In this document: one piece after another, positions 8,484-46,293 of the stretch
How positions within the stretch are numbered: the stretch's first letter is position 1
Layout of the letters: every line of letters begins with the position of its first letter
NCBI GenBank assembly: GCA_017516745.1
Contig: JAFXBF010000018.1
Coordinates: 1-59,426, forward strand
DNA length: 59,426 nucleotides
Source of the DNA: Clostridia bacterium
GTDB lineage: Bacteria; Bacillota; Clostridia; Oscillospirales; Acutalibacteraceae
Reading direction: 5' to 3'
Translations under genes and position numbers: made by a program
Notes under the pieces: model-generated
The model's input: the letters and a program-made list of their open reading frames with translations, nothing else
What the model was told of the DNA's origin: nothing
Database searches by the model: none

Positions 8484-8502
8484 GCGAAGTATGATACTTC
8501 GC
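8484..8502 (-). promoter_or_regulatory. Perfect 8-bp hairpin between aptamer and terminator
   Basis: GCGAAGTA (8484-8491) and TACTTCGC (8495-8502) pair around a 3-nt loop. The hairpin shares bases with the 3' edge of the aptamer P1 stem, so it may belong to the switching (expression platform) structures. Confidence 0.45.
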
Positions 8503-8624
8503 CTTTTCCCATCCGGACTGTTACCGTCGGTATCGGAATTGCACCGATTCGGGGAAAACCGCAGCCGGTTTTCCTTCGCAGACTTTTACTGCCGGTGAGG
8601 ATTTTCACCTCGCCCCAAAGAATA
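8501..8624 (-). ncRNA. FMN riboswitch (RFN element)
   Basis: Read on the minus strand the element shows the conserved RFN blocks in order: GGGGCGAGGTGAAAATCCTC, ACCGGCAGTAAAAGTCTGCG, a variable arm, CGGTGCAATTCCGATACCGA, CGGTAACAGTCCGGATGGGA. A short P1 helix (CTTT with AAAG) closes it. It sits immediately downstream of a consensus promoter and upstream of a terminator and ribU, the standard arrangement for FMN-repressed riboflavin uptake. Four genes (ribU, rsmE, rsmF, PHP) follow without another obvious promoter. Confidence 0.96.
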
Positions 8625-8638
8625 TTCACTTTATATGT

Positions 8639-32885: not shown

Positions 32886-35567
32886 ATGCAATTCTATCTT
32901 CAGGAAACCAAGGACGTTTTCTCTGCCGTAGGCAGTAACGAAAACGGTCTGTCCTCGCAGGAGGCAGCAAGCCGTCTTGAAAAGAATGGCAAAAACAAGC
33001 TCGCAGAGGCCAAGAAGGACTCTATGTTCAAACGCTTCGTCAACCAGATGAAGGACCCGATGATTATCATTCTTCTCGTTGCCGCAGTTATTTCTGCCGC
33101 TACGGAAATGATTGAGCACGGCGGCTGGACAACACCGACTGATTCAATAATCATTCTTACCGTTGTTCTTATCAACGCTGTTCTCGGTGTTCTTCAGGAA
33201 AGCAAGGCGGAAAAGGCCGTTGAGGCACTTCAGAAGATGTCTGCCGCAACAACAAAGACCCTTCGTGACGGCAAGGTTGAAACCGTCAAGAGTGAAGACC
33301 TTGTTGTGGGTGACGTTGTTCTTCTTGACGCAGGTGACGCTATTCCTGCCGACTGCCGTATTTTTGAATGTGCCAGTATGAAGATTGAAGAAGCTGCACT
33401 TACGGGTGAATCTGTTCCCGTAACAAAGCTCGTTAAGGCTCTTATGGGCAAGAACGACAGCGATGAAATTCCGCTTGGCGACCGCAAGAACATGGCTTAT
33501 ATGGGCTCTACTCTTGTTTACGGCCGTGGTAAGGCTGTTGTCACCGCAACGGGTATGGACACCGAAATGGGCAAGATTGCCAACGCCATCACCCTTGCAG
33601 AGGAAGGTAAAACTCCGCTTGAAATCAAGCTCGAGCAGCTTTCCAAAATCCTTACAAAGCTCGTTATCGGCGTTTGCGTATTTATTTTCGCATTCAACAT
33701 TGTAACAAAGTACTTTATGGGCCCCGAGGGCGCAGAGCTTTTCCCGATTGCGCTTGATTCGTTTATCACCGCTATCGCACTTGCTGTTGCCGCTATTCCC
33801 GAAGGCCTTGTAGCAGTTATGACCATCGTTCTTTCAATGGGCGTTACGAATATGTCCAAAAAGAACGCAATCATCCGTAAAATGACGGCGGTTGAAACGC
33901 TCGGCTGCACACAGATTATCTGCTCGGATAAGACGGGTACACTCACACAGAACGTTATGACCGTTGTTGACCACTATGCAGAGGACGAAATCCGCCTTGC
34001 AACGGCAATGGCTCTTTGCACAAACGCACAGGTTGAGCCCGACGGCAAATCCACCGGCGAGCCCGACGAGGTAGCACTTATTAACTACGCAAAGACACTT
34101 GGACTTGCAAAGGAAGAGCTTGTTGCAAAGACTCCCAGAGTCGGCGAAGTGCCGTTCGATTCCGGCAGAAAGATGATGAGCACCGTTCACTCGGCTGACG
34201 GCAAGTACGTTCAGTTCACAAAGGGTGCTCCCGACGAAATTCTCAAGAAGTGCTCCCACGCCTTTGTCGGCGGTCAGGTTGTAGCCATGACTGACGAAAT
34301 CAAGGCAAAGGCAGCCGAAGAAAACACAAGAATGGGCAACAAGGCTCTTCGTGTTTTCGCCGTTGCATATAAGATGTACGATGCAGAGCCTGCGGTTTAC
34401 GATTCCGCTTCGCTCGAGTACGATATGATATTCATCGGCCTCACCGGTATGATTGACCCTGTCCGTCCCGAGGTTAAGGACGCTATCGCAGAATGCCGTA
34501 CAGCAGGCATCAAGCCGATTATGATTACGGGCGACCACATCAACACCGCAAAGGCTATTGCAAGAGAGCTCGGTATTCTTTCCGACGACTCACAGGCTAT
34601 GATGGGTGTTGATATTGACAAGTACACCGACGAAGAGTTCGAGGCGATTGTCGAGAACATCAACGTTTACGCCCGTGTTCAGCCCGAGCACAAGACAAGA
34701 ATTGTCAACGCATGGCGCAGCAAGGGCTACGTTACCGCTATGACGGGTGACGGCGTTAACGATGCACCGTCAATCAAGAGTGCCGATATCGGTGTCGGTA
34801 TGGGTATCACAGGTACGGACGTTACAAAGAACGTTGCAGATATGGTTCTTGCAGACGATAACTTTGCAACAATCGTTTCCGCAGTCGGCGAAGGCAGAAG
34901 AATTTACGACAACATCCGTAAGGCTATTCAGTTCCTTCTCGGTTCCAACCTTTCCGAGGTTATCTCGATTTTCTTCGCTTCCCTTATGAATTTCACAATT
35001 CTTCAGGCGCCGCACCTTCTCTTCATCAACCTCATCACCGACTCTCTGCCCGCACTTGCACTCGGTACAGAAAGACCCGAGGCGGACATTATGAGAAGAA
35101 AGCCCAGAAGCAAGAACGACGGTATTTTCGCAGGCGGTCTCGGTGTTGACTGTGCTTACCAGGGTATCATCGTTTCAATCCTTACAGTTGCCGCTTTCTA
35201 TATCGGTGAGTTCCTTGAAACAGGTCACCTTATCTGGAGAAATATTCCCGACAGCAGCGAGGGTATGACAATGGCATTCTTCACCATGGCTATGTGTGAA
35301 ATCTTCCATTCGTTCAATATGCGCTCGCAGCGTGGCTCAGCCGTTGCAATGGTATTCAAGGGCAGCCACAATATCCTTCTCTACGGCGCAATGGCTCTCT
35401 CCTTCGTCCTCACAACAGCCGTTGTTGAGATTGACTTCCTTTCCAACCTCTTCGGCTTTGCTCACCTCGACCTCAAGGCATACCTCATTTCTCTCGGTCT
35501 TGCCTTCCTCGTCATCCCGATTGTCGAAGTTGTAAAGCTCATCCAGAGAAAAACAGCGAAGAACTAA
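32886..35567 (+). CDS. P2-type cation ATPase, probably manganese (or calcium) exporter
   Basis: An 893-aa P-type ATPase of the Ca2+/PMCA-like group. Seen: LTGESVPV (actuator loop), AVAAIPEGLVAV (M4 metal-site PEGL), CSDKTGTLTQN with the phosphorylated Asp at about residue 348, KGAPDEI (nucleotide domain), MITGDH, and MTGDGVNDAPSIKSADIGVGMG (hinge), plus about ten membrane segments with NLITDSLPALALG in M6. Sequence class alone says Ca2+; the upstream yybP-ykoY riboswitch argues for Mn2+ export, as in Lactococcus yoaB and Streptococcus MgtA-type pumps. ATG follows AAGGAG by about 8 nt. Single-gene unit with terminator. Confidence 0.92.
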   Translation: MQFYLQETKDVFSAVGSNENGLSSQEAASRLEKNGKNKLAEAKKDSMFKRFVNQMKDPMIIILLVAAVISAATEMIEHGGWTTPTDSIIILTVVLINAVLGVLQESKAEKAVEALQKMSAATTKTLRDGKVETVKSEDLVVGDVVLLDAGDAIPADCRIFECASMKIEEAALTGESVPVTKLVKALMGKNDSDEIPLGDRKNMAYMGSTLVYGRGKAVVTATGMDTEMGKIANAITLAEEGKTPLEIKLEQLSKILTKLVIGVCVFIFAFNIVTKYFMGPEGAELFPIALDSFITAIALAVAAIPEGLVAVMTIVLSMGVTNMSKKNAIIRKMTAVETLGCTQIICSDKTGTLTQNVMTVVDHYAEDEIRLATAMALCTNAQVEPDGKSTGEPDEVALINYAKTLGLAKEELVAKTPRVGEVPFDSGRKMMSTVHSADGKYVQFTKGAPDEILKKCSHAFVGGQVVAMTDEIKAKAAEENTRMGNKALRVFAVAYKMYDAEPAVYDSASLEYDMIFIGLTGMIDPVRPEVKDAIAECRTAGIKPIMITGDHINTAKAIARELGILSDDSQAMMGVDIDKYTDEEFEAIVENINVYARVQPEHKTRIVNAWRSKGYVTAMTGDGVNDAPSIKSADIGVGMGITGTDVTKNVADMVLADDNFATIVSAVGEGRRIYDNIRKAIQFLLGSNLSEVISIFFASLMNFTILQAPHLLFINLITDSLPALALGTERPEADIMRRKPRSKNDGIFAGGLGVDCAYQGIIVSILTVAAFYIGEFLETGHLIWRNIPDSSEGMTMAFFTMAMCEIFHSFNMRSQRGSAVAMVFKGSHNILLYGAMALSFVLTTAVVEIDFLSNLFGFAHLDLKAYLISLGLAFLVIPIVEVVKLIQRKTAKN

Positions 35568-35585
35568 TCGCACAATAAAGTAATT

Positions 35586-35617
35586 AAGCCGTCAGCTTGA
35601 AAGTAAGCTGACGGCTT
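35586..35617 (+). terminator. Terminator after the P-type ATPase
   Basis: AAGCCGTCAGCTT (35586-35598) and AAGCTGACGGCTT (35605-35617) form a perfect 13-bp stem, followed by TT. Confidence 0.9.
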
Positions 35618-35685
35618 TTGCTATAATAGAACAGTACAGTTTTTTGTGAATTATAGTTTGTATAAGTGCATTCTGCACTAAAAAG

Positions 35686-35715
35686 CCGCCCGTACTGCAT
35701 TTACAACACGGGCGG
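35686..35715 (-). terminator. Terminator after the ABC exporter pair
   Basis: Minus strand CCGCCCGT (35715 to 35708), a 14-nt loop, ACGGGCGG (35693 to 35686), then CTTTTTAG. It lies 46 nt past the second exporter stop codon. Confidence 0.85.
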
Positions 35716-35761
35716 TAAAACTATTGAGGTTTTTAAGAATTAAAGAGCAAAGTATGCGCCA

Positions 35762-37561
35762 TCAGCTTTCCTTGTACTTTTCCGCCTGTAAACGGAACAT
35801 ATAGGCGTATTTGCCGTTTTGCTCCATCAGCTCGTCGTGGCTGCCGCACTCAATTACCCTGCCGTTTTCGAGCATAAGTATTCTGTCGGCGTGGCGTGTG
35901 GTGGAAAGACGGTGCGATATGAACACAACCGTTGAGTCCGTACAGCTTTCGCTTATCGCCCTGTTCAGCTCGTATTCCGAAACGGGGTCAAGGTTAGCGC
36001 TCGGCTCGTCGAGAATGATATACGGGCTTTGCTTATAGAACACTCTTGCAATTGCCAGCTTCTGCTGTTCGCCGCCCGAAAGCATTAAACCTTCGTCGCT
36101 GAATTCACGCAGCAGCATGGTATCCGCACCGTTGGGAAGCTCTTTTGTAAAGCCTGCCAGTTCGAGTGCCTTCATCACACGGTCGCTGTCGTATTTCGGA
36201 GAAAGTGCCACGTTTTCGCCGACGGTTGCGCCGAAAATGCAAAAGTCCTGGAACACTGCGGAAAAGCGGCTGCGGTGGGAGGCAACCGTTACATCCCGTA
36301 TATCTCTGCCGCCTATTTCGATTGAGCCCGAATCAACGTCATAGAGCCTTAACAAAAGGTTGGTGAGCGTTGTTTTGCCGGCTCCGTTGTAGCCGACAAG
36401 AGCTATTTTTTCGCAGGGCTTTATTTCAAAGGAAACGCCGTTTATGCTCTCCTTTTCGCCGCCCTCATAAGTAAAGGAGATATCCTTTACAGATATCGTT
36501 TCGGGTTTGTCGCATTCAGCCGTATGGGCACCGTCCTTGATTTTGCTGTCGGTAGCTAAAAAGCTGCGGCATTTTTCAATCATCTTCGACCGCTCGGTAA
36601 AGCTCCTTAAGCTGTAAACCGTAAGGTACAGCACACTCGCACCAATCTGCGTGGCACCGTTGAAGGTGGCAACGAAATCGCCTGCGCCCATCTTACCCGT
36701 AACTATTGTCTGATAGCCTATGTAAAGGCTGAGAATAAGCATAAAGCCGACAACCTGAACCGAAAATTCCTGCACGAAGAAAAGCCCGTCCAGCTTTCGG
36801 ATAAAGCCCTTCTGCGTTTTGATAAGGTCGTTTGCACTTTCGTTGAAGCGTTTGCGCAGCAAGGGATATATACCGCTCGTGCGGATTTCGCCTGCATAAT
36901 CGGGCAGGTAAAACACCCTTGCAAAATAGTCGCTTCTGCGGTGCTTTTCGGTTACCGCTTCACGGCGCTTTGTCTGCAGATTGCCCGTATATTTGCCAAG
37001 CGGAATGAAAAGAATTACCGAGCCGAGCACAATAACAAGGCAAATCGGGTCAATAGTGAGCATAATTGCCGCTATTGCAAGGAAGGACAGAATCTGCTCA
37101 ATATAGCCCTTGATAATGCTGAGAATGTTTGTGAGGTTATCTGACACATTTTCTATAGACAGAATAAAATCGCTGTAATAACCCGGGTCGTCGTACTTGG
37201 CAAGGTCAAGCTCTGCCGCTTTACGGTAGAACATCGACTGAATTATCAGATCCATTTTCTCACGCTCACGGTGAACAAAAAGCTCATAGAAAACATTTGA
37301 GAAAATTTCGCACACAACGATTACGGCAAGCATAATTATAATGCCCGTGATTATCTTTTTCGGCTCACCGCCGCTTTGCACCTCGTCAATTATGTATTTA
37401 AGGCCTATAACGGATATGAGCTTACCCGGCATTGCGCCGACAATCTGCTCAAAAATGCTGCCGATTACAAGCCACGGCGAAGCCTTGAACATAAGCGAGA
37501 GCATATAGATTATATTTGAAACAGTGCTGTGCTTCTTCCTTATTTTCGCTTTCATTTTCAT
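35762..37561 (-). CDS. ABC exporter half-transporter, second of a pair
   Basis: A 599-aa fused permease-ATPase. Six membrane segments lie in residues about 20-310, then the ATPase: Walker A ALVGYNGAGKTTLTNLLL, signature LMLSGGEQQKLAIARVF, Walker B YIILDEPSANLDP, and H-loop VVFISHRLSTTRHADRI. Its start overlaps the end of the first exporter gene by 4 nt, so the two likely form a heterodimer in equal amounts. No peptidase C39 domain is present. The peptide gene upstream of the pair (39488-39553) makes peptide export the leading hypothesis, but lipid or drug export is possible. Confidence 0.92.
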   Translation of the reverse strand: MKMKAKIRKKHSTVSNIIYMLSLMFKASPWLVIGSIFEQIVGAMPGKLISVIGLKYIIDEVQSGGEPKKIITGIIIMLAVIVVCEIFSNVFYELFVHREREKMDLIIQSMFYRKAAELDLAKYDDPGYYSDFILSIENVSDNLTNILSIIKGYIEQILSFLAIAAIMLTIDPICLVIVLGSVILFIPLGKYTGNLQTKRREAVTEKHRRSDYFARVFYLPDYAGEIRTSGIYPLLRKRFNESANDLIKTQKGFIRKLDGLFFVQEFSVQVVGFMLILSLYIGYQTIVTGKMGAGDFVATFNGATQIGASVLYLTVYSLRSFTERSKMIEKCRSFLATDSKIKDGAHTAECDKPETISVKDISFTYEGGEKESINGVSFEIKPCEKIALVGYNGAGKTTLTNLLLRLYDVDSGSIEIGGRDIRDVTVASHRSRFSAVFQDFCIFGATVGENVALSPKYDSDRVMKALELAGFTKELPNGADTMLLREFSDEGLMLSGGEQQKLAIARVFYKQSPYIILDEPSANLDPVSEYELNRAISESCTDSTVVFISHRLSTTRHADRILMLENGRVIECGSHDELMEQNGKYAYMFRLQAEKYKES

Positions 37562-39384
37562 TCCACGCTCCCCTCATCATCTGTGTAGCTTGAAGCCTGG
37601 AGCGTGAACATTTCGCAGTAGCCGCCCTTAGCCGCCATAAGCTGTTCGTGCGTGCCGCACTCGGTAACCGTACCGCCATCGAAGACATAAATTCTGTCCG
37701 AAAGCACGGCGGAAGAAAGCCTGTGAGAAATGTAGATAACCGTTTTTTCCTCGGTTGCTTCAATAAGGCTTTCGTACATTTTGTATTCTGCTATGGGGTC
37801 AAGCGCTGACGAGGGCTCATCCAGAATTGCAAAATCAAAGTTCTTTGCAAACATTCTGGCGGCACACAGCTTCTGCTGTTCACCGCCCGAAAGTCCTGTG
37901 CCCTTTTCGTCAAACTCACGGGTAAACACGGTCTGCCTGCCCTCGGGCATGGACATAATCCGCTCGTAAATACCTGCAGCTTTGAGGGCTTTGTCAGTAA
38001 CGGCATCGTCCGCTTCGCCCTCACATTCACGGCACAGCACGTTTTCGCCAACGGTCAGTGCAAAGACCTTGTAATCCTGAAAAACGGTTGCAAGTCTTTC
38101 GTGAAGGGAAGCGATTTCATATTCCCGTATATCCGTGCCGTTGTATAGAATTTCTCCGCTGTCGGGGTCGTAAAAGCGCAGTAGCAGTTTAACAAAGGTT
38201 GTTTTGCCTGCACCGTTGTGACCGACAACGGCTACGGTTTCACCTTTGCTGATTTTAAAGCTGAGGTTTGTCAGAGAGGCTTTCTTTGCACCGGGATAGG
38301 TAAAGCTGACGTTTCTGAATTCGAGACTTTCAAATTCTTCGGCCTTTTTGTCGCCGCCGACAACCCTTTCTTCGTACTCAAAAAAGTCTTTCAGGTTGCC
38401 GAAATAAGCGGCTTCCTTCCTGACATTTGAAATGGCGTCACTCAAATCCTTGAGCACATCTTTGAGGTTGCTTACAGCCGTGACGATAACGGAAAAATCC
38501 GACACGGCGAGGTTTCTTTTCACAACAAAGCGGTATGCGGCATAGCCGTAGGTTGCAGCAACGGGCACAGCCTTACCGAAAAGACCCGAAACCGTTTCAA
38601 GCAGCATTACCTTAACGCCGTATTTTTTGATTATTGCCCTGTTGGTTTCAACCGCCGTTTTAAGCCGCTCAAGCATAACGGAAAATATGTCCGAGGTGCG
38701 CATATCCTTGGAAAAATCCTTGAGAAAAACCGTACGCTTGACGTATTCCTTTGAACGCTTGTGCGGTGTCATTTCCTTGTCTTTCTTCACATCGATTTTG
38801 CCGATTGCAATACCTGCCAGCACAACGAAAACGCCGACGGAAAGTATGAGCAACAGCCTCGGGTCAATTGAAACAATGTAAATAACAAGGAAAACACCCG
38901 TAAGCGTGCTTGCAAAAACATTTGAAAGATTAAAGGCAAATTCCATATTGTGCTCGTTGGTTATGATTTCCGTTGCACGCTTGTATTTGTCATAGAAATC
39001 GGGATTCTCAAAACAAGCCATATCAACGCTTACAGCCTTTCTGAAAATCCTGTCGTTGAGCCTTTTGTAGAATAATTTTGCTCTTGTGCAGACAAAATAG
39101 TCCGTAATGCAGTCCGTTGCCTTTGCAAGCAGACCTGCACCGGCAAACATCAGCACGAGCATTACATACTGCTTGTAGCTGCCGCCTTCTTCTATAAGCT
39201 CAAGCAAAAACTTGAGAAACAGTATTTCCTGAATAAAGCCCGTAAAAAACCAATAGGCTGTCTGGGTCATAATGAATGCAGTAAGCAGTAACGGTGCACA
39301 CTGCGCACAGATTTTTACGGCATAGAGCGTATCCTTAAGAGCCTTGAAGCGCTCTCCACCTTGTTTTTTGGGATTTTGTTTCAC
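37558..39384 (-). CDS. ABC exporter half-transporter, first of a pair
   Basis: A 608-aa fused permease-ATPase: six predicted membrane segments (about residues 25-320), Walker A AVVGHNGAGKTTFVKLLL, signature TGLSGGEQQKLCAARMF, Walker B FAILDEPSSALDP, H-loop VIYISHRLSSAVLSDRI. I chose the GTG at 39384 because AAGGAG lies 7 nt upstream; an in-frame ATG at 39468 sits inside the preceding terminator hairpin and is unlikely. There is no protease domain. It lies about 100 nt downstream of a 21-codon peptide gene, behind an intrinsic terminator, so read-through would supply the exporter at lower level than the peptide. Confidence 0.92.
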   Translation of the reverse strand: MKQNPKKQGGERFKALKDTLYAVKICAQCAPLLLTAFIMTQTAYWFFTGFIQEILFLKFLLELIEEGGSYKQYVMLVLMFAGAGLLAKATDCITDYFVCTRAKLFYKRLNDRIFRKAVSVDMACFENPDFYDKYKRATEIITNEHNMEFAFNLSNVFASTLTGVFLVIYIVSIDPRLLLILSVGVFVVLAGIAIGKIDVKKDKEMTPHKRSKEYVKRTVFLKDFSKDMRTSDIFSVMLERLKTAVETNRAIIKKYGVKVMLLETVSGLFGKAVPVAATYGYAAYRFVVKRNLAVSDFSVIVTAVSNLKDVLKDLSDAISNVRKEAAYFGNLKDFFEYEERVVGGDKKAEEFESLEFRNVSFTYPGAKKASLTNLSFKISKGETVAVVGHNGAGKTTFVKLLLRFYDPDSGEILYNGTDIREYEIASLHERLATVFQDYKVFALTVGENVLCRECEGEADDAVTDKALKAAGIYERIMSMPEGRQTVFTREFDEKGTGLSGGEQQKLCAARMFAKNFDFAILDEPSSALDPIAEYKMYESLIEATEEKTVIYISHRLSSAVLSDRIYVFDGGTVTECGTHEQLMAAKGGYCEMFTLQASSYTDDEGSVE

Positions 39385-39420
39385 GTTACATCTCCTTAGT
39401 GGCAACTGAGTCAGCTTGAT

Positions 39421-39462
39421 AAAAAGCAAAACAATCCCGAAAACGCAATGTCCTCGGGATTG
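39421..39462 (-). terminator. Attenuating terminator between peptide gene and exporters
   Basis: Minus strand CAATCCCGA (39462 to 39454), a 13-nt loop, TCGGGATTG (39440 to 39432), then TTTTGCTTTTT. A 9-bp perfect stem with an interrupted T-tract, so partial read-through is plausible. Confidence 0.8.
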
Positions 39463-39487
39463 ACACATTGGCTTATGTTTTCGCTTT

Positions 39488-39553
39488 TCAGCAAGCAGAA
39501 ACGGACACAGCTACCCGAATTTCAGTTTTGTTGAATAAAGTTGTCATCATCAT
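39488..39553 (-). CDS. 21-aa peptide, candidate exported or modified peptide precursor
   Basis: An open frame of 21 codons plus TGA starts with three ATG codons, MMMTTLFNK, and ends RVAVSVSAC with a C-terminal cysteine. GGAG lies 6 nt before the first ATG. A near-consensus promoter (39611-39639) lies about 50 nt upstream and an intrinsic terminator follows 26 nt after the stop, then two ABC exporter genes. Small size, own strong promoter, terminator read-through into exporters and a Cys/Ser/Val-rich end are what a peptide pheromone, bacteriocin or RiPP precursor would show. No maturation enzyme gene is adjacent. Alternatively it is a regulatory leader peptide. I know no named family for it. 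Confidence 0.6.
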   Translation of the reverse strand: MMMTTLFNKTEIRVAVSVSAC

Positions 39554-39579
39554 GTCCGTCTCCTTTCTTAAAAATTTCA

Positions 39580-39612
39580 TTGCACCTTAACACGGTCAGT
39601 GCCAAGGTGCAA
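39580..39612. promoter_or_regulatory. Inverted repeat over the start site of the peptide gene
   Basis: TTGCACCTT (39580-39588) and AAGGTGCAA (39604-39612) are perfect 9-bp arms with a 15-bp centre. The distal arm touches the -10 box and the likely start site lies within the repeat, so it could be an operator or a partial leader hairpin. Confidence 0.6.
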
Positions 39613-39639
39613 TATAGCATATTTTACTTTGTTTGTCAA
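39611..39639 (-). promoter_or_regulatory. Promoter of the peptide-exporter unit
   Basis: Minus strand TTGACA (39639 to 39634), 17-nt spacer, TATATT (39616 to 39611). The predicted start is near 39604, about 50 nt before the first ATG. Confidence 0.88.
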
Positions 39640-39649
39640 ATTAAATTAC

Positions 39650-41806
39650 TTAATTAAACAGCGTCTTCGTGCCTGCGCTGTACACCCACGGGGTGAAGCC
39701 TGTTTCGAGTGCGGGTGAATTTTTGGCAAGCGTGAAATCACGGTTTTGGGCATCCTTGAAAACAGGGTCGGCAAACACGGCGTTGTTGTAATAGCCTCTT
39801 GCAACCATAAGGGGAATACTTTTTTTGTCAACCAGCTTCATCGAGTAGCCCGAAGTGACATTTCCGCCGTTGGCATAATCCCAGTAAAGGTTGCTGTCAT
39901 CAACAAACCAGTTGCTTTCTATTGTACGTGCATACATCGGTGCGTTGTCGGTTACAAGAATGTTGTTGGTAAGGGTGAGGGAATTGTGTTCTTCGTGTCT
40001 TGAAATTATGAATGCTCCCTCACCGCCAAAAGCAAAAATATTGTTTCTTATTATATTATCCTTACCGTAGTGCTGGTGGAAGGTCTGTGAGGAGCAATCA
40101 TAAGCGAGGTTGTTTTCAACAAGTATGCCGCTTGAGCCCTCGTCAAGGTATATACCCCAGCCACCGTAGCCGTAAGCGCCCTCGTCACAGCCGACATCGT
40201 GAACGATGTTCCCACTGATGACGGAATCGGGCTGAATACCGAGCGTATATATACCGCCCATATCGGAAAGCCAGCCGTTGCCGATGTTGTAAATGAGGTT
40301 ATCGCAGATTTTAATTCCGTTTGTCGGGTTGGGTGCATAGCCCCAGTTCCAGCCGACAGAAACACCCGTGTACCAACCGTCGTGAATTTCGTTGTTTGTG
40401 ATATTACAGTCGATTGCATGGGTAAGCAAAACGCCGATAGCATTATTGAAAATTCTGCCGTAGTTACTGATGTGACAGTCTGTTACATTGATGCGCTGAG
40501 TATTGGCAGGCACAACAGCATCGCCGTGGATGAATACTGCGTTTGCACCGATTTCGTTGAAGTAGCAGCTTGTTATATCACAGTCGGTGGATGCTTTGTC
40601 AAACTTAACAGCCGTATAAGAAATATTTTCAAAGCGGCAGTCGGTGAAATTGACACCGGATGAAGCTGTGACATAAATTGCGGCAGGAATTTCGAAAGCC
40701 GCCTGCGGATGCACGCCGCCGTATTTAATATTGCCGTACATCGGGCTTGACTCAAGCATAGACTCATCAAAGAAAGCACCGTCAACATGAGTCCAGTCTG
40801 TATTCTCGAAATTGATACCACGGAAAGAAATGTTTTCAACACCGTCAAGCGTTACAAGCAGCTCACAGCCACCTGCACAGAGCACGGTATTATCAACCGT
40901 ATCGCCTTCCTGCGGTATATAGTAGAGCTTTTCTTCACTGCGGTCAAGGTACCACTCGCCCGGAAGACTGAGTGCTTCTTTTACGTTTTCAAAAATGTAG
41001 TTATCGTCAACTCTTAAAGTCATTGATGAAACTTTTGACACTTCTATTCTGCCTGTCGAGGTATTAACAGAGTGAATCGGCAGAAGTTCATCGCACCAAT
41101 AATGCATAACTCTTACATCAACGTCATTAATGTTTGTAAAGCTAAGCAAATCTTTGGTATGCGCAACAAAAGCCACTGTATGGGTAAAAAATTCGGGTGA
41201 CCAGTCGGAAGGCACGCCTTCTTCAATTATCGGGTCAGCAATTTTGAAAACACCCTGCTTGGGATAATTGGAGCGTGAAAGCCTTTTGCCGTCTTTGAAA
41301 AGTGAGTGGAAGTAATCGGCCTCACTCTTGATAGGCATATCGGTAACAAAAGCCCTTACGCCGTTAACGGTTGTTTCACTCCAGCTGCCGCTTATTTCCT
41401 TTGCGCCCGAGAAGATAACCTCTTCACCCGGGTAGGAACGGTAAAGCACATCTTTTCTGTCTGCTGAAGTAAACTCAACCGTATCCTTTATTGTATATGT
41501 ACCCTCTCTGAACCATACGGTAATTGTGCCGACGTCACCGAGCTTAATTGCCTTTAACTTTTCTTTTGCCGCTTCAAAGGTTTTCAGCGGATTTTCAAGA
41601 GAACCGTTGTTGCTGTCGTTACCGTTGGGGGAAACAACTATATCGTATTCGCCCATTGTAAATTCTCCTTCGTCAAATGCTTGCTTTACGGCAGGTGTCA
41701 CCTCGTCAAACTCGCCTTCGACGGGCTCGGCAGGGTTGAAAATAAGGCTGAACATAGTAAAAATTGCGGTTATAAACGAAACAATTTTTGCAAAAAACAT
41801 ATCCAT
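39650..41806 (-). CDS. Secreted or anchored right-handed beta-helix glycan enzyme
   Basis: A 718-aa protein with an N-terminal hydrophobic signal or anchor (KIVSFITAIFTMFSLIF), very like that of the protein at 15345. A DUF1565-type start follows (DIVVSPNGNDSNNGSLENPLKTFEAAKEKL, cited in part), then RLSRSNYPKQGVF and many short beta-helix coils (NITNNEIHDGWYTG, ISGNIVHDVGCDEGAYG, ILVENNLAYDCSSQTF, IIRNNIFAFGGEG). The layout resembles GH141-like or polysaccharide-lyase-like beta-helix enzymes; the exact family and substrate are not certain. AGGAGG lies before the ATG. Transcribed alone, divergent from the permease gene. Confidence 0.8.
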   Translation of the reverse strand: MDMFFAKIVSFITAIFTMFSLIFNPAEPVEGEFDEVTPAVKQAFDEGEFTMGEYDIVVSPNGNDSNNGSLENPLKTFEAAKEKLKAIKLGDVGTITVWFREGTYTIKDTVEFTSADRKDVLYRSYPGEEVIFSGAKEISGSWSETTVNGVRAFVTDMPIKSEADYFHSLFKDGKRLSRSNYPKQGVFKIADPIIEEGVPSDWSPEFFTHTVAFVAHTKDLLSFTNINDVDVRVMHYWCDELLPIHSVNTSTGRIEVSKVSSMTLRVDDNYIFENVKEALSLPGEWYLDRSEEKLYYIPQEGDTVDNTVLCAGGCELLVTLDGVENISFRGINFENTDWTHVDGAFFDESMLESSPMYGNIKYGGVHPQAAFEIPAAIYVTASSGVNFTDCRFENISYTAVKFDKASTDCDITSCYFNEIGANAVFIHGDAVVPANTQRINVTDCHISNYGRIFNNAIGVLLTHAIDCNITNNEIHDGWYTGVSVGWNWGYAPNPTNGIKICDNLIYNIGNGWLSDMGGIYTLGIQPDSVISGNIVHDVGCDEGAYGYGGWGIYLDEGSSGILVENNLAYDCSSQTFHQHYGKDNIIRNNIFAFGGEGAFIISRHEEHNSLTLTNNILVTDNAPMYARTIESNWFVDDSNLYWDYANGGNVTSGYSMKLVDKKSIPLMVARGYYNNAVFADPVFKDAQNRDFTLAKNSPALETGFTPWVYSAGTKTLFN

Positions 41807-41837
41807 AAGAATTTACCTCCTGTTTTACTATTATAAC

Positions 41838-41867
41838 ATAACAGTTAAAATAATTTCAATAATTATT
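41838..41867 (-). promoter_or_regulatory. Promoter of the beta-helix enzyme gene
   Basis: On the minus strand TTGAAA, an 18-nt spacer and TATAAT can be read within this interval, about 30 nt before the AGGAGG and ATG. Coordinates are approximate to a few bases. Confidence 0.65.
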
Positions 41868-41925
41868 TACGCCGTGATTTGTTTGTGATAATATATGATC
41901 TGTAACAAAACAAAAGGTGTATTAT

Positions 41926-43029
41926 ATGGTAACAGTAAAAGAGTTCTTAAAAAAAGAAGCCGTGCTTGTAATATCGTTTGTGCTTGCCTTGGCTTCAATG
42001 TTTTTTGTAGTCCCGAGCGCAGAATATCTCGGCTATATTGACTTTCGCACGCTGGCACTTTTGCTGTGCCTTATGCTTGTTATGGCAGGGCTAAATGCAC
42101 TCGGTGTATTCCGCCTGCTTGCGGATAAGCTCTTAAGTAAGACAAACAGCACACGCACGTTGGGATTAACGCTCAATCTTCTGTGCTTTTTCTTCTCGAT
42201 GCTGATAACAAACGATGTAGCGCTGATAACCTTTGTGCCCTTCACGCTGATAGTGCTGAAATTATCGGACAAGATGAATAAGGCCATACTGCTCGTCGTG
42301 CTTGAAACGGTTGCGGCAAACCTCGGCAGTATGCTCACTCCCATAGGCAATCCGCAGAATCTCTACCTTTTTTCTGCGTTCAATATGGGAACAGGCGAAT
42401 TTGCAGGCGCAGTTGCACCATATGCCATACTGTCGCTTGTGCTTATTGCAATAAGCTCGTTTTTGCTCGGCAATGAAAAAATCACGGTTAAAGCAGACGA
42501 AAACACGCCAAAAATAAACAAGGTAAAGGCGCTGGTTTATGCAGGTCTGTTTGCCGTTTCGCTGCTGACGGTTTTCCGTGTTATCCCCTACCCCGTAACG
42601 CTTGGCATCACGCTTGCGGCTGTAATTATCGCAGACAGGAAAACGCTTATAAAGGCGGACTACAGCCTGCTTTTAACCTTTGTTTTCCTCTTTGTTTTCA
42701 TAGGTAACCTCGGCGAAATTGAGGCGGTGAGCACCTTCCTCAAATCAATAGTTTCAGGCAGAGAGGTGCTTGTCGGCATTGCGGCAAGCCAGGTTTTCTC
42801 CAACGTACCTGCGGCACTTCTTCTGTCCAACTTCACGCAGAATGCAACTGCTCTGCTTGTTGGCGTAAACCTCGGCGGATTGGGCACACTTATAGCGTCT
42901 ATGGCAAGCCTGATTTCCTTCAAGCTCATTGCAAAGGAAAACATAAATACGGGCAGATATCTGCTCGTGTTTACGGTTGTGAATATAGTGTTTTTATCAC
43001 TTAACCTGATACTTTGGTTTATTATGTAA
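41926..43029 (+). CDS. Ion-transporter (CitMHS/ArsB/NhaD-like) superfamily permease
   Basis: A 367-aa protein with about 10 membrane segments. Seen: FFFSMLITNDVALITFVPFTLIVL and ANLGSMLTPIGNPQNLYLFS (the TPxGNPQN signature of anion permeases of the IT superfamily), repeated weakly later as ASQVFSNVPAALLLSNFT. Substrate cannot be read from sequence; family members move citrate, dicarboxylates, sulfate or arsenite. I chose the ATG at 41926 (AAAAGG 8 nt upstream) over a GTG three codons earlier. It ends 13 nt before cysK, so sulfate or another sulfur-related anion is an attractive guess, not proven. Confidence 0.85.
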   Translation: MVTVKEFLKKEAVLVISFVLALASMFFVVPSAEYLGYIDFRTLALLLCLMLVMAGLNALGVFRLLADKLLSKTNSTRTLGLTLNLLCFFFSMLITNDVALITFVPFTLIVLKLSDKMNKAILLVVLETVAANLGSMLTPIGNPQNLYLFSAFNMGTGEFAGAVAPYAILSLVLIAISSFLLGNEKITVKADENTPKINKVKALVYAGLFAVSLLTVFRVIPYPVTLGITLAAVIIADRKTLIKADYSLLLTFVFLFVFIGNLGEIEAVSTFLKSIVSGREVLVGIAASQVFSNVPAALLLSNFTQNATALLVGVNLGGLGTLIASMASLISFKLIAKENINTGRYLLVFTVVNIVFLSLNLILWFIM

Positions 43030-43042
43030 AGGAGTTTTTGTT

Positions 43043-43972
43043 ATGGCAAAAATTTATTCCTCTGCCGCAGATTTAATCGGCAAAACCCCGTTGGTAAGGC
43101 TTCACAATATCGAAAAAGAATACGGCTTGAAGGCTGAAATTCTTGCAAAGCTCGAATATCTCAACCCCGCAGGCTCTGTCAAGGACAGAGTTGCAAAGGC
43201 TATGATAGAGAACGCCGAAAAAAGCGGCGCATTAAAGCCCGACAGCGTTATAATCGAGCCGACAAGCGGTAACACGGGTATAGGCCTGTGCCTTATGGCG
43301 GCGGCAAAGGGCTACAGAATAATTATCGTTATGCCCGAAACCATGTCTGTTGAGCGCAGATTGCTTATGAAGGCGTACGGCGCAGAGCTTATTCTGACAG
43401 ACGGTGAGAAAGGCATGAGCGGTGCAATTGAAAGAGCGGAACAGCTCAGCCGTGAAAATCCGAACAGCTTTATACCGGGGCAGTTTGTAAATCCTGCCAA
43501 CCCCGAGGCACATTACAACACAACCGGCCCCGAAATTTTTGAAGACACTGACGGCGAAGTTGATTTCTTTGTCGCAGGCATCGGCACAGGCGGCACAATA
43601 ACCGGCACGGGCAAATATCTGAAGGAAAACATTCCCGATATAAAGATTGTCGGTGTCGAGCCTGCCTCCTCTGCTGTCCTCACGGGCGGTGAGGCAGGCG
43701 CACATAAATTGCAGGGCATAGGTGCAGGCTTCGTACCCGAAGTACTTGACACTTCTGTTTACGATGAAGTAATACCCGTTGAAAACGAGGCAGCTTTTGA
43801 AGCAGGCAGAGTGATAGCCAAAAGAGAAGGCGTGCTTGTCGGCATATCTTCGGGTGCCGCTCTGTTTGCGGCAATCGAGCTTGCAAAGCGCCCCGAAAAC
43901 AAGGGCAAAAGAATAGTTGTTCTCCTGCCCGACACAGGCGACAGATATCTGTCAACGGAATTATTCAATTAA
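43043..43972 (+). CDS. cysK: CysK, cysteine synthase
   Basis: A 309-aa PLP enzyme (O-acetylserine sulfhydrylase) making cysteine from O-acetylserine and sulfide. Seen: AKLEYLNPAGSVKDRVAKAM (PLP Lys, about residue 46), IEPTSGNTGIGLCLMAAAKG (substrate loop), FVAGIGTGGTITGTGKYLKE (phosphate-binding glycines), IVGVEPASSAVLTGG and GVLVGISSGAALFA. Length is standard. AAAGGAG before ATG. In a two-gene unit with the permease at 41926. Confidence 0.96.
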   Translation: MAKIYSSAADLIGKTPLVRLHNIEKEYGLKAEILAKLEYLNPAGSVKDRVAKAMIENAEKSGALKPDSVIIEPTSGNTGIGLCLMAAAKGYRIIIVMPETMSVERRLLMKAYGAELILTDGEKGMSGAIERAEQLSRENPNSFIPGQFVNPANPEAHYNTTGPEIFEDTDGEVDFFVAGIGTGGTITGTGKYLKENIPDIKIVGVEPASSAVLTGGEAGAHKLQGIGAGFVPEVLDTSVYDEVIPVENEAAFEAGRVIAKREGVLVGISSGAALFAAIELAKRPENKGKRIVVLLPDTGDRYLSTELFN

Positions 43973-43977
43973 AATTC

Positions 43978-44029
43978 AACAAAAGCACCAAAGGCTTTGC
44001 ACAGGTGAATTCCTGTGTGAGCTTTTGTT
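43978..44029 (+). terminator. Terminator after cysK
   Basis: AACAAAAGC (43978-43986) and GCTTTTGTT (44021-44029) pair, with an inner hairpin CACAGG (44000-44005)/CCTGTG (44012-44017), followed by TTTTATTTTG. Confidence 0.75.
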
Positions 44030-44215
44030 TTTTATTTTGTTTCTTTTGTTCTTCGCTGCGTCAGGCAGTTCTTTTCCAATATTTGTGCGTTGACTGTAAT
44101 ATGCTGATGATGTTAGTATCTTTTTGTCGAACAAAACAGTTTCGCACATTTACACAGCTTCGGGCGGCCGTCAACCGTCTGGGGCAAAAAATCAGAAAAG
44201 GAAGGATTTTGGCAA

Positions 44216-44890
44216 ATGACACTCAAGAAAATTCTTGCAACTGTTATTGCTGCGGTAATGTGCCTGTCACTCGGTATGACTGCTTTTGCGGCACCCGAGG
44301 ACGAGTCCGCCACCGAGGCTGTAACAAACGAAGAAATCACAAGCGAGGAAGCAAGCTCCGAAGAAGCTACATCCGAAGAAAACGTTTCCGAAGAGGAAAC
44401 AAGTGAAGAGCCCTCCTCCGAAGAGGCTTCAAGCGAAGAAAACTCCACAGAAGAGCCCGGCAAGGATGATGTTATTTCTCTTATCGTAAAGCTTCTCGGT
44501 CAGATTGACTTTGAAGAGGTAAAGAACACACTCAACGACATCAACGAGGCGCTCGGCCTTCCCAGAGTCGAGGACTTCACAGACATCCCTGCTTATGCGG
44601 ATGCTCTCTACAAGAAGCTTGACGAAATGGGTCTGGGCTACGACGATATCATCAACGGTATTGCTTCAAGCGACCTGCTCGACTGGCTCAATAACCTCCT
44701 CTTCGGCGGCGGTAACAAGCCCGGCAGCACTACCACCACAGTTGTTGATTCCGAAAACAACGGCTCCGACAGCGGTGAGAGCACACCCGATACAGGTATT
44801 GCAGTAGGCGGTACAATTGCCGCAGTTGCTGCCCTCAGCGGCTCTTCCGCACTCGCCTTCGTGCTCCGCAAGCGCAACGACGAGGAATAA
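44216..44890 (+). CDS. Ser/Glu-repeat surface protein with TPDTG sorting-like tail
   Basis: A 224-aa secreted protein. Signal peptide (residues 1-24, ending in MTAFAAPED), then about 55 residues of SEEA/TSEE/SSEE repeats, an about 80-residue helical domain (DDVISLIVKLLGQIDFEEVK, ALYKKLDEMGLGYDDIINGI), a Gly/Thr/Ser linker, and the tail ESTPDTG, hydrophobic segment IAVGGTIAAVAALSG...ALAFVL and RKRNDEE. This looks like a sortase-type or membrane-retained wall protein. AAGGA lies about 9 nt before the ATG. Function unknown; the acidic repeat is likely extended and highly charged. Single gene with a terminator downstream. Confidence 0.8.
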   Translation: MTLKKILATVIAAVMCLSLGMTAFAAPEDESATEAVTNEEITSEEASSEEATSEENVSEEETSEEPSSEEASSEENSTEEPGKDDVISLIVKLLGQIDFEEVKNTLNDINEALGLPRVEDFTDIPAYADALYKKLDEMGLGYDDIINGIASSDLLDWLNNLLFGGGNKPGSTTTTVVDSENNGSDSGESTPDTGIAVGGTIAAVAALSGSSALAFVLRKRNDEE

Positions 44891-44970
44891 TCGGACAATT
44901 AAAATTTTCTCAATTCCAAAAAATCAAAGTGAACGTGAAAATTAAATCATAGTCATAAGTTTAACCTCCG

Positions 44971-45002
44971 AAGGTCTGCTCTGATTAACCAGGGCAGACC
45001 TT
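44971..45002 (+). terminator. Terminator after the Ser/Glu-repeat protein
   Basis: AAGGTCTGCTCTG (44971-44983) pairs with CAGGGCAGACCTT (44990-45002) with one wobble, followed by TTCCTTG. Confidence 0.8.
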
Positions 45003-45093
45003 TTCCTTGTTAAATAGTGAAATAGTGAAATAATAATGTAAATTAGTGAAAAAATAGTGAAATTTTCAAATCTGTTCTTTGACTTTTATCTAA

Positions 45094-45111
45094 AGGTCAA
45101 AGAAAGTCAAA
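45094..45111 (+). promoter_or_regulatory. CtsR operator-like site 1
   Basis: AGGTCAAA GAA AGTCAAA is a direct heptad repeat closely matching the known CtsR box (RGTCAAANANRGTCAAA). It lies about 110 nt upstream of the putative -10 box of the ctsR operon. Confidence 0.75.
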
Positions 45112-45180
45112 ATCCAAGAAAATTGAAGAAAAACGGAGTATTCGGGAGCTATTTTCAAAAATCGGGGCACAGAAAACAGT

Positions 45181-45203
45181 TTTGACCTTTATTGACCTTT
45201 GAC
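45181..45203 (-). promoter_or_regulatory. CtsR operator-like site 2
   Basis: Read on the minus strand it contains AGGTCAATAAAGGTCAA, two heptads with the CtsR spacing. It overlaps the proposed -35 region. Confidence 0.75.
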
Positions 45204-45225
45204 GGTTTGATCAAAATCGTATAGA
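45198..45225 (+). promoter_or_regulatory. Probable promoter of the ctsR operon
   Basis: TTTGAC (45198-45203), a 16-nt spacer and TATAGA (45220-45225). It is flanked by CtsR-like sites 2 and 3, which would allow repression by occlusion. Confidence 0.55.
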
Positions 45226-45229
45226 CTAA

Positions 45230-45246
45230 AGTCAAAGAAAGTCAAA
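45230..45246 (+). promoter_or_regulatory. CtsR operator-like site 3
   Basis: AGTCAAA GAA AGTCAAA, a direct heptad repeat directly downstream of the -10 box and about 48 nt before the ctsR start. Confidence 0.78.
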
Positions 45247-45293
45247 GTCAATGTTTTACTTTGAGAACTTCAAGGAAAGGTAGTGAGCGTTAA

Positions 45294-45752
45294 GTGAACA
45301 TCAGCAACACTATCGCAAAGCTCATTATGGATATGCTTGAGGCAGACGGCGGAAGCGCTGAAATGCAGCGAAACGAGCTGGCGCAGCTTGTCGGCTGTGT
45401 GCCAAGCCAGATTAACTACGTTATCTCCTCACGCTTTACGCCCGAGCAGGGTTATATCGTCGAAAGCCGCAGAGGCGGCGGCGGTTATATCCGCATCACC
45501 CGTGCGGCATACACTACCCCCGGCGATATGATAATGCACCTGCTCAATCATATCGGCACAGGTATTGATGAAAAGACGGCACGTGCGCATATAATAAATC
45601 TCGCAGGCAGAGAAATTATTTCAAACAAAACGGCAAAAATTATGCTTGCGGCTGTCAGCGACAACTGCTACAGAAATTTAAACCAACCCGTCAGAGACAC
45701 AGTCAGAGCATCTGTAATCAAACAGATGTTACTTCAGGTAATAAATTCATAA
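45294..45752 (+). CDS. ctsR: CtsR, heat-shock repressor of clp genes
   Basis: A 152-aa winged-helix repressor of class III heat-shock genes. Seen: NISNTIAKLIMDML, QRNELAQLVGCVPSQINYVISSRFTPEQGYIVESRRGGGGYIRI (DNA-binding domain with the Gly-rich beta-wing RGGGG that also senses heat), and a C-terminal domain that McsB-type kinase would phosphorylate. Start is GTG at 45294; the nearest purine-rich site AAGGAAAGG is about 13 nt away, so the start is likely but the spacing is long. First gene of ctsR-mcsA-mcsB-clpC, with its own operator sites upstream. Confidence 0.94.
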   Translation: MNISNTIAKLIMDMLEADGGSAEMQRNELAQLVGCVPSQINYVISSRFTPEQGYIVESRRGGGGYIRITRAAYTTPGDMIMHLLNHIGTGIDEKTARAHIINLAGREIISNKTAKIMLAAVSDNCYRNLNQPVRDTVRASVIKQMLLQVINS

Positions 45753-45777
45753 AAGGAAAGGTAAGGAGGAATATATT

Positions 45778-46293
45778 ATGTTATGTCAGAATTGCGCAAA
45801 GGCGCAGGCAACCACACACATCAAAAGAGTTGTAAACGGCGAAACAACTCAGCATCACCTCTGCTCACAGTGTGCAAAGGAATTGGGCTACACCGATATG
45901 TTTTCGGGCTTTGCGCCGTTGAGCTTAAGTGATTTCTTTTCGGATTTTCTCGGCGATGTCGGCAGAAAGGCTGTGGGCACAAAGGTCGAGCGCTGTCCGA
46001 AATGCGGCAACTCCTTTAACGATATCGTAAGGGAAAGCCAACTCGGCTGTGCCGAATGCTACAGAATTTTCTTTGACAAGCTCCAGCCCTCGCTCGAAAG
46101 AATTCACGGCAGAGCGCTTCACTCGGGTAAGAAAATCGAAGTCACCCACGAGGAAGCGGCCGTACCTACAAAGGAGGAGCAGATTGCACAGCTTAAAGTT
46201 AAACTTGAAGAAGCCGTAAAAGAGCAGGAATTTGAACAGGCAGCAAAGCTCAGGGATGAAATACGAGAGCTTGAAGGAGGCGAAGGAAAATGA
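45778..46293 (+). CDS. mcsA: McsA, zinc-finger adaptor of the McsB arginine kinase
   Basis: A 171-aa protein that activates McsB. Two Cys4 zinc modules are visible: MLCQNCAKAQ...HLCSQCAKELG (residues 1-37) and ERCPKCGNSF...GCAECYRIF (about residues 77-106), and a C-terminal UVR motif (QEFEQAAKLRDEIRELE). AAGGAGG lies before the ATG. It ends within the start of mcsB (4-nt overlap). Confidence 0.94.
   Translation: MLCQNCAKAQATTHIKRVVNGETTQHHLCSQCAKELGYTDMFSGFAPLSLSDFFSDFLGDVGRKAVGTKVERCPKCGNSFNDIVRESQLGCAECYRIFFDKLQPSLERIHGRALHSGKKIEVTHEEAAVPTKEEQIAQLKVKLEEAVKEQEFEQAAKLRDEIRELEGGEGK

Follow-up and report, generated by a model that had tools for sequence, protein, structure and literature searches.

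In a Clostridia bacterium of the family Acutalibacteraceae (assembly GCA_017516745.1), we examined a contig of 59,426 nucleotides (JAFXBF010000018.1, analyzed over its whole length and hereafter called the window), in which a 21-codon open reading frame (ORF) precedes a pair of ABC exporter genes. This short frame, which an earlier note had taken for the gene of a secreted peptide, is almost certainly the leader of an attenuator. The element as a whole, judged from sequence comparison and modelled RNA folding, is very probably a ribosome-dependent transcription attenuator of the leader-peptide type that would control the exporter pair. The observations behind this reading are the layout of the locus, its conservation, two competing RNA pairings, and a frame that is kept with little selection on its amino acids.

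Layout and conservation of the leader locus

All features of the leader and the exporter pair lie on the minus strand of the window. The promoter (39611-39639), with a −35 box TTGACA (39639-39634) and a −10 box TATATT (39616-39611) separated by 17 nt, matches 11 of 12 consensus positions and has an extended TG; it is the best of seven promoter-like sites in 4 kb, where shuffled sequences yield a mean of 5.3 sites of any quality. The leader ORF (39488-39553, 21 codons plus stop, MMMTTLFNKTEIRVAVSVSAC) begins at an ATG at 39553 behind the Shine-Dalgarno (SD) sequence AAAGGAG. Past its stop codon lies an intrinsic terminator, the stem of which (39462-39432) comprises 13 pairs at −18.3 kcal/mol and is followed by TTTTGCTTTTT; its 5' arm, which we call strand 3, occupies 39450-39462, and the loop, the 3' arm (strand 4, 39444-39432) and the T tract occupy 39424-39449. 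Two ABC half-transporter genes follow (37558-39384, with a GTG start at 39384, and 35762-37561), the start of the second overlapping the stop of the first (ATGA). Promoter, ribosome binding site, short frame, terminator and translationally coupled exporters thus stand as the earlier note had described them. The interval that it gave, 37558 to 39639, correctly starts at the promoter but stops at the end of the first exporter, leaving the second outside. The note also made no mention of a 5' hairpin and of two long-range complementarities, described below, which explain the conserved end of the frame.

To place the leader in a comparative frame, we retrieved 79 loci with relatives of the first exporter and kept 34 (L031-L062, L066 and L093) that had at least 49% identity and the 5' end present, the incomplete L067, L069 and L097 being dropped. 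The conservation that the earlier note had proposed as a check was found: a leader ORF of 19-25 codons occupies the equivalent place in 24 of these 34 loci, all from other genomes. With the window, this gives 25 leaders, and in every one a terminator hairpin lies 17-33 nt after the stop codon. Promoter arrangement in the other loci, judged by eye from the upstream sequences, is similar to that in the window.

The 5' hairpin, an inverted repeat at 39578-39614 between promoter and SD, overlaps the transcript start. Hairpins with changed stems are seen by eye at the equivalent place in other loci; the loop is CCGTGT in many loci of two groups and different in the L036-L043 group. It may be an mRNA stabiliser or an operator.

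Both exporters match ABC_tran in Pfam, together with an ABC_membrane match that is below the cut-off in each, and the Pfam scan places a C39 peptidase domain in neither, as the earlier note had said. No NCBIfam model reached its cut-off among the best 25 for each exporter, and the 60 solved structures that match best in sequence include P-glycoprotein- and MsbA-like exporters. By eye, no maturase was recognised among the ORFs of 33000-46000; farther away no maturase search was made. Upstream of the operon, 39650-41806 (minus strand) encodes a large protein with a hydrophobic N-terminus and a weak match, far below the cut-off, to the pectate lyase PelN.

Two RNA pairings and the codons that carry them

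The C-termini of the leaders appear conserved (YPVIVSASC, YPVVVSVSA, RVAVSVSAC, YPVVVSIFCS), and the codons concerned are complementary to RNA on both sides. Strand 1 (39553-39563, GGAGACGGACA) spans the SD and the start region; strand 2b (39498-39507) comprises the V-S-V-S codons (TGTCCGTTTC), which are complementary to that SD/start region (GAGACGGACA). Just upstream of 2b, strand 2a (39514-39519, TTCGGG) is the putative antiterminator strand, complementary to the terminator 5' arm; across the loci these codons read TATCCGG or TTCGGG and pair with CCGGA or CCCGAG in strand 3. Pairing 1:2b is stronger than in shuffled sequences at every one of the 25 loci, with p at most 0.036; for 2a:3, this holds at 18 of them (p < 0.05). 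The two strands of each pairing also fit each other better within a locus than between loci (−16.6 versus −14.8 kcal/mol for 1:2b and −10.7 versus −8.8 kcal/mol for 2a:3, 18 dereplicated loci; each 0 of 5000 permutations), a comparison that is inflated by relatedness and thus amounts to less than a strict probability.

Pairing 1:2b shows covariation. In L039, L040, L042 and L043, the SD GACAGACA stands opposite GTCTGTT, elsewhere GACGGACA stands opposite GTCCGTT, and in L053 the SD GTTGGACA faces GTCCAATTT at the cost of N-F replacing V-S or A-S. The block as a whole varies (VSVS, VSAS, VSNF, VSIF, VSKF) opposite different SD sequences; the leader amino acids are given up where the RNA pairing needs it. 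Six spacings between ATG and strand 2b occur, from 43 to 58 nt and all equal modulo three; since the 25 leaders were found as ORFs, their being in frame in 25 of 25 cases follows in part from the way they were found.

Pair counts were taken from an alignment, A2, of 15 of the 25 sequences (those other than L036, L038-L040, L042, L043, L048, L052, L055 and L056), in which L031 is out of register at the SD. At one column of 2a:3, G-C replaces C-G in 3 of the 15 sequences (the window, L062 and L066), all of the window's lineage, so this may be one event. The terminator register of A2 suits the window type and not the CCGG type, column pair 136/156 being unpaired in 10 of 15 sequences; the terminators therefore rest on the hairpins of the individual loci (25 of 25).

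The second check that the earlier note had called for, purifying selection on the peptide, turned out against it. The N-terminal codons show 54 nonsynonymous to 6 synonymous changes (0.90; neutral 0.80; 12 pairs) and the C-terminal block 219 to 105 (0.68; neutral 0.69; 83 pairs), versus 677 to 1483 (0.31) for the exporter gene, counted in 9 of the 12 pairs used for the N-terminus; neither leader test rests on independent pairs, and that of the N-terminus has a small sample. Restricted to codons with a single base change, the counts are 26:6 (0.81) and 144:105 (0.58), the latter somewhat below neutral, and mild constraint thus remains on the C-terminal block, the site of the RNA pairings. The leader peptides of the window, L062 and L066 are identical except for one extra Met in the window. 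The leader amino acids are under little or no purifying selection, though the frame is kept. Because of the complementarity to the SD, the complementarity to the terminator and the little codon selection, we read the C-terminus as RNA rather than peptide: as far as sequence can tell, its conservation is explained by RNA pairing.

A wider family of leaders

With R1, a covariance model built on the exporter leaders, 300 family genomes were searched; 7 matches, mostly training loci, were strong (at least 97 bits), and the others formed a tail that did not exceed 44 bits. Among 17 tail loci below 45 bits, 10 had a leader-like ORF (L126-L129, L131-L133, L136, which is doubtful, L139 and L142) and 7 did not (L124, L125, L130, L134, L137, L138 and L140). 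These cousin leaders end in ...VLSVCK or ...ILSVSA, with the SD AGGTGGACAAAATG opposite GTTTTGTCC, and L127, L128 and L136 also stand before ABC transporter genes. At the distant exporter paralogs (L063-L065, L068 and L070-L110, among 94 sources), R1 detects no leader; among these is a paralogous ABC pair in the window's own genome (L110, G000:C26:196246-199822), 45% identical. At L071 (~2726), in a rabbit-gut genome with a 36%-identical exporter, there is a different 31-codon leader, MTTYRNYEHNYENIILKRKRCLPISPLKAGE, with an end complementary to its own SD and a terminator-like hairpin behind, possibly the same design reached separately.

A pattern blind to frame (GGACANNATG, 18-48 nt, TGTCCGYTT) matched 30 times in 22 of the 300 family genomes, and its reversed control 7 times. 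Of these matches, 24 are short leader ORFs with strand 2b always in the same phase, a stop two or three codons past TCC-GTT or TCC-GCT, and ATG-to-2b distances of 37 to 43 nt that differ by multiples of three; the remaining six (L153 and L158-L162) are not leaders. A stricter pattern, run on 394 genomes of the order, matched in 5, two of them outside the family. One of the two outside matches (L177) is out of phase with no stop following, and the other is a real leader (L178 in G478, a genome of a different family within the order); it is almost identical to the leaders of the main family, which may reflect transfer or a misbinned contig.

These searches delineate a subfamily, here called LSV, of leaders ending in ...AVLSVCD*. 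Across 22 LSV loci, 1:2b comprises 13 pairs, 8 of them invariant, and is paired in 99.3% of cells, the codons CGGAGAGCC (R-R-A) pair with the terminator GGCATCTCCG in most loci, with a compensatory G-C to A-U change of 2a:3 in 4, and an intrinsic terminator is present in all 22. The codon counts are 135:13 at the N-terminus (36 pairs, neutral 0.79) and 536:138 at the C-terminus (210 pairs, neutral 0.71). A model of the LSV set (R2) found 45 places, those in related genomes not being independent, in 28 of the 300 family genomes with E no higher than 1e-6. Its five matches in the genome that contains the window include three LSV copies and, in fourth place, the window element (39.9 bits, E 4.6e-5); the training set of R2 contained no window-type exporter leader. 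Two of these copies, L189 (G000:C14:101994-102131) and L210 (G000:C27:72656-72799), precede GNAT acetyltransferase genes, and behind the third, L209 (G000:C20:8300-8436), no gene was delimited.

Among 32 R2 loci examined, a gene was delimited mechanically behind 25, a nearer gene possibly being skipped in a few. The 24 downstream genes scanned with Pfam comprise 13 GNAT acetyltransferases, 3 histidine phosphatases, 3 without a match, one each of an ABC transporter, a HAD hydrolase, a nucleoside phosphorylase and a xylose-isomerase-like protein, and one small P-loop protein (below the cut-off). The window leader had no match in phages, one LSV leader none in plasmids, and a strict pattern none in viral contigs.

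Ribosome position, competing explanations and known systems

We modelled the effect of ribosome position by partition functions in which a footprint reaching 15 nt upstream and 17 nt downstream from the P site was kept single-stranded. In ribosome-free RNA of the exporter loci, 1:2b forms in 22 of 25 and 2a:3 in 2 of 25. A ribosome at codon 1 gives 2a:3 in 24 of 25 loci and at codon 4 in 21 of 25; at codon 7, at codon 10 or just before 2a, it gives 2a:3 in none. Footprints of 12/14 and 18/20 nt leave the pattern unchanged, and in shuffled segments of the exporter loci, the two pairings reach a probability of 0.5 in 24% and 23%. In the LSV loci, 2a:3 forms in 22 of 22 with the ribosome at codons 1-3, in 6 of 22 at codon 5 and in none at codons 7-15.

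Taken together, these features suggest the following mechanism. RNA polymerase would start at the strong promoter and a ribosome would load onto the leader. During normal translation, the moving ribosome would cover 2a, the terminator 3:4 would form and the exporter would be off; with no ribosome, strand 1 would pair with 2b, enclosing 2a, and the outcome would be the same. A ribosome held at the first codons, for example by initiation-trapping drugs, would cover strand 1 and free 2a, which would pair with strand 3 and let transcription continue into the exporter genes. A ribosome on the early codons is probably the main trigger; for ribosome-targeting drugs as the signal, for which the mechanism and the kinds of genes argue, our confidence is slightly lower, and the pump would then be expected to export translation inhibitors. 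Much of what defines a leader-peptide attenuator is found here: a short ORF with an SD and a kept frame, and an intrinsic terminator before the structural gene. An antiterminator that competes with the terminator, dependent on ribosome position, is predicted in silico, with weak covariation.

Several observations weigh against this attenuator. No leader was found at that place in 10 of the 34 related loci (L034, L035, L046, L050, L051 and L057-L061); of these, L057 has just 166 nt of upstream sequence, and L058 and L059 are second genes preceded by another ABC gene, L059 possibly being covered too, by the wider-family leader before the ABC gene at L128, whose contig is as long as that of L059. 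In a leader scan of 24 further loci, start codons were sought in a crude way, and its negatives are weak. Pairing 2a:3 does not exceed shuffles at 7 of the 25 loci, the window and six others; in the window, it is short, with 6 pairs at −8.8 versus −5.8 kcal/mol for shuffles (p 0.11-0.12). The covariation of 2a:3 is modest, 95 of 500 shuffles having as many doubly changed pairs, and the covariation score was reached by 472 of 500 shuffles; taken together, the covariation measures lie little above those of shuffles. The two pairings are not nested, and ViennaRNA has no power to separate mutual exclusion from a pseudoknot. The LSV contrast is weaker than that in the exporter loci because shuffled segments often give 2a:3 too (above 0.5 in 60%); in addition, ribosome-free LSV RNA is split between 1:2b (12 of 22) and 2a:3 (10 of 22). 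Finally, the modelled RNA ended before the terminator 3' arm, and on the full transcript, 3:4 has a probability of at least 0.96 in every computed state; as with other attenuators, the decision would therefore have to be a kinetic one.

The explanation that survives best beside a start-codon signal is a variant of the same attenuator, overlapping with it, in which the ribosome is held at the leader stop codon, by a TnaC-like arrest peptide or by slow termination. A ribosome with the stop codon in the A site covers 2b and not 2a, which could have the same outcome; 2a:3 then forms in 17 of 25 exporter and 21 of 22 LSV loci (15-19 and 14-21, respectively, over the three footprints), and erythromycin appears to stall ribosomes at termination on ToiL, an upstream ORF (uORF) of E. 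coli, in the available part of that report (PMC12121999). In the exporter loci, however, this state favors 2a:3 less than a ribosome at the start does, and the terminal residues vary (VSVSA, VSASC, VSVSAR, VSIFCS, LSVCD, LSVCK, LSAD), unlike a selected arrest sequence; we consider it unlikely in place of the start.

Sensing by the RNA itself, with 1:2b and 2a:3 forming a pseudoknot that acts as a riboswitch or binds a protein, would fit the conservation of both helices, the topological feasibility of an H-type pseudoknot and the 5' hairpin with its CCGTGT loop in many loci. It is improbable, given that start, stop and frame are kept, with the ATG-2b spacing varying by multiples of three only, and that strand 1 is the SD itself. 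Equally improbable is an attenuator that senses amino-acid starvation through one charged tRNA: this is the classical design, and many leaders begin with two or three Met codons, but no shared run of a single codon is apparent by eye upstream of 2a, the N-terminal codons differ freely, and the targets are exporters and acetyltransferases rather than biosynthetic genes. Least probable of all, and by a wide distance from being likely, is the secreted pheromone, bacteriocin or new ribosomally synthesized and post-translationally modified peptide (RiPP) of the earlier note, which the short frame, its strong SD and promoter, its conserved position next to an ABC exporter pair and the Cys near the end of many leaders would suit, and which is opposed by the little or no selection on amino acids, by an end complementary to SD and terminator, by related leaders before non-exporters (GNATs, phosphatases), by the lack of a C39 domain in either exporter, and by the lack of a maturase recognised by eye among the ORFs of 33000-46000.

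Turning from these alternatives to the attenuator with a start-codon signal, we compared it with known leaders. The leaders of vmlR, cplR and vga(A) control ABC-F factors, unlike the exporter pair here. As PMC12121999 cites them in the part available, they respond to drugs under which ribosomes probably stall at start codons. In Bacillus subtilis, drug-impaired translation of BmrB (53 residues) leads to read-through into the ABC exporter pair bmrCD by ribosome-mediated transcription attenuation, and there, as here, a translated leader with a predicted terminator, antiterminator and anti-antiterminator stands before such a pair (PMC4191407, in the portion available). As that portion describes BmrB, the three structures lie inside the 53-residue coding region, whereas here the leader has 19-25 codons, the terminator lies 17-33 nt past the stop and the leader's own SD is predicted to act as the anti-antiterminator strand; induction by drugs was shown for BmrB (PMC4191407) and would be expected here, the likeness drawn being one of design. 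ToiL, the uORF of topAI in E. coli, on which tetracycline and retapamulin hold ribosomes at the start codon, is likewise a short leader whose RNA is rewired by ribosomes stalled by drugs at the start or near the stop, but the accessible text has it acting through topAI translation and Rho (PMC12121999), in contrast to the intrinsic terminator here. From both BmrB and ToiL, as far as those sources describe them, the element differs in having the SD as one strand of the predicted switch, in a terminator placed behind the ORF and in occurring before genes of many kinds.

An Rfam 15 search of the window at gathering scores matched no family at the leader, and nine related loci likewise matched none; sub-threshold matches to snoRNAs, microRNAs and a CRISPR repeat were taken as chance. 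The sole match in the window was elsewhere, an FMN riboswitch at 8497-8626 (minus strand, 100.7 bits). No report of this leader element was found in a literature search that had most subscription journals outside its reach. Premature terminators before ABC transporter genes have been termed 'ABC-leaders' in a study that we take to be that of Naville and Gautheret (2010). They were predicted in many genomes and, as described in the part of the source available, differ from the present element in lacking a leader ORF complementary to the SD (PMC2965389). Given the lack of an Rfam match and of a published report, we consider this leader-peptide attenuator family a candidate new variant of a known attenuator type.

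The supposed new peptide is thus recast as a regulatory element whose switch can be tested, and the case cautions that a tiny ORF may owe a conserved C-terminus to the structure of its RNA and not to the peptide. Many different genes within one bacterial family are preceded by related elements. Should a stalled ribosome be the signal, the element would point to translation-inhibitor-responsive genes of uncultured gut bacteria. More tentatively, and without quite calling it probable, we suggest a lineage-wide translation-stress regulon of uncultured gut Clostridia, in which many unlinked detoxification-type genes (for GNAT acetyltransferases, ABC exporters and phosphatases) would each carry a copy of one attenuator; with the leader's own SD as the regulatory strand, any ribosome trapped at the start codon, whatever the drug, would turn the gene on. 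Such a leader, if the regulon is real, would mark resistance or detoxification genes of unknown substrate.

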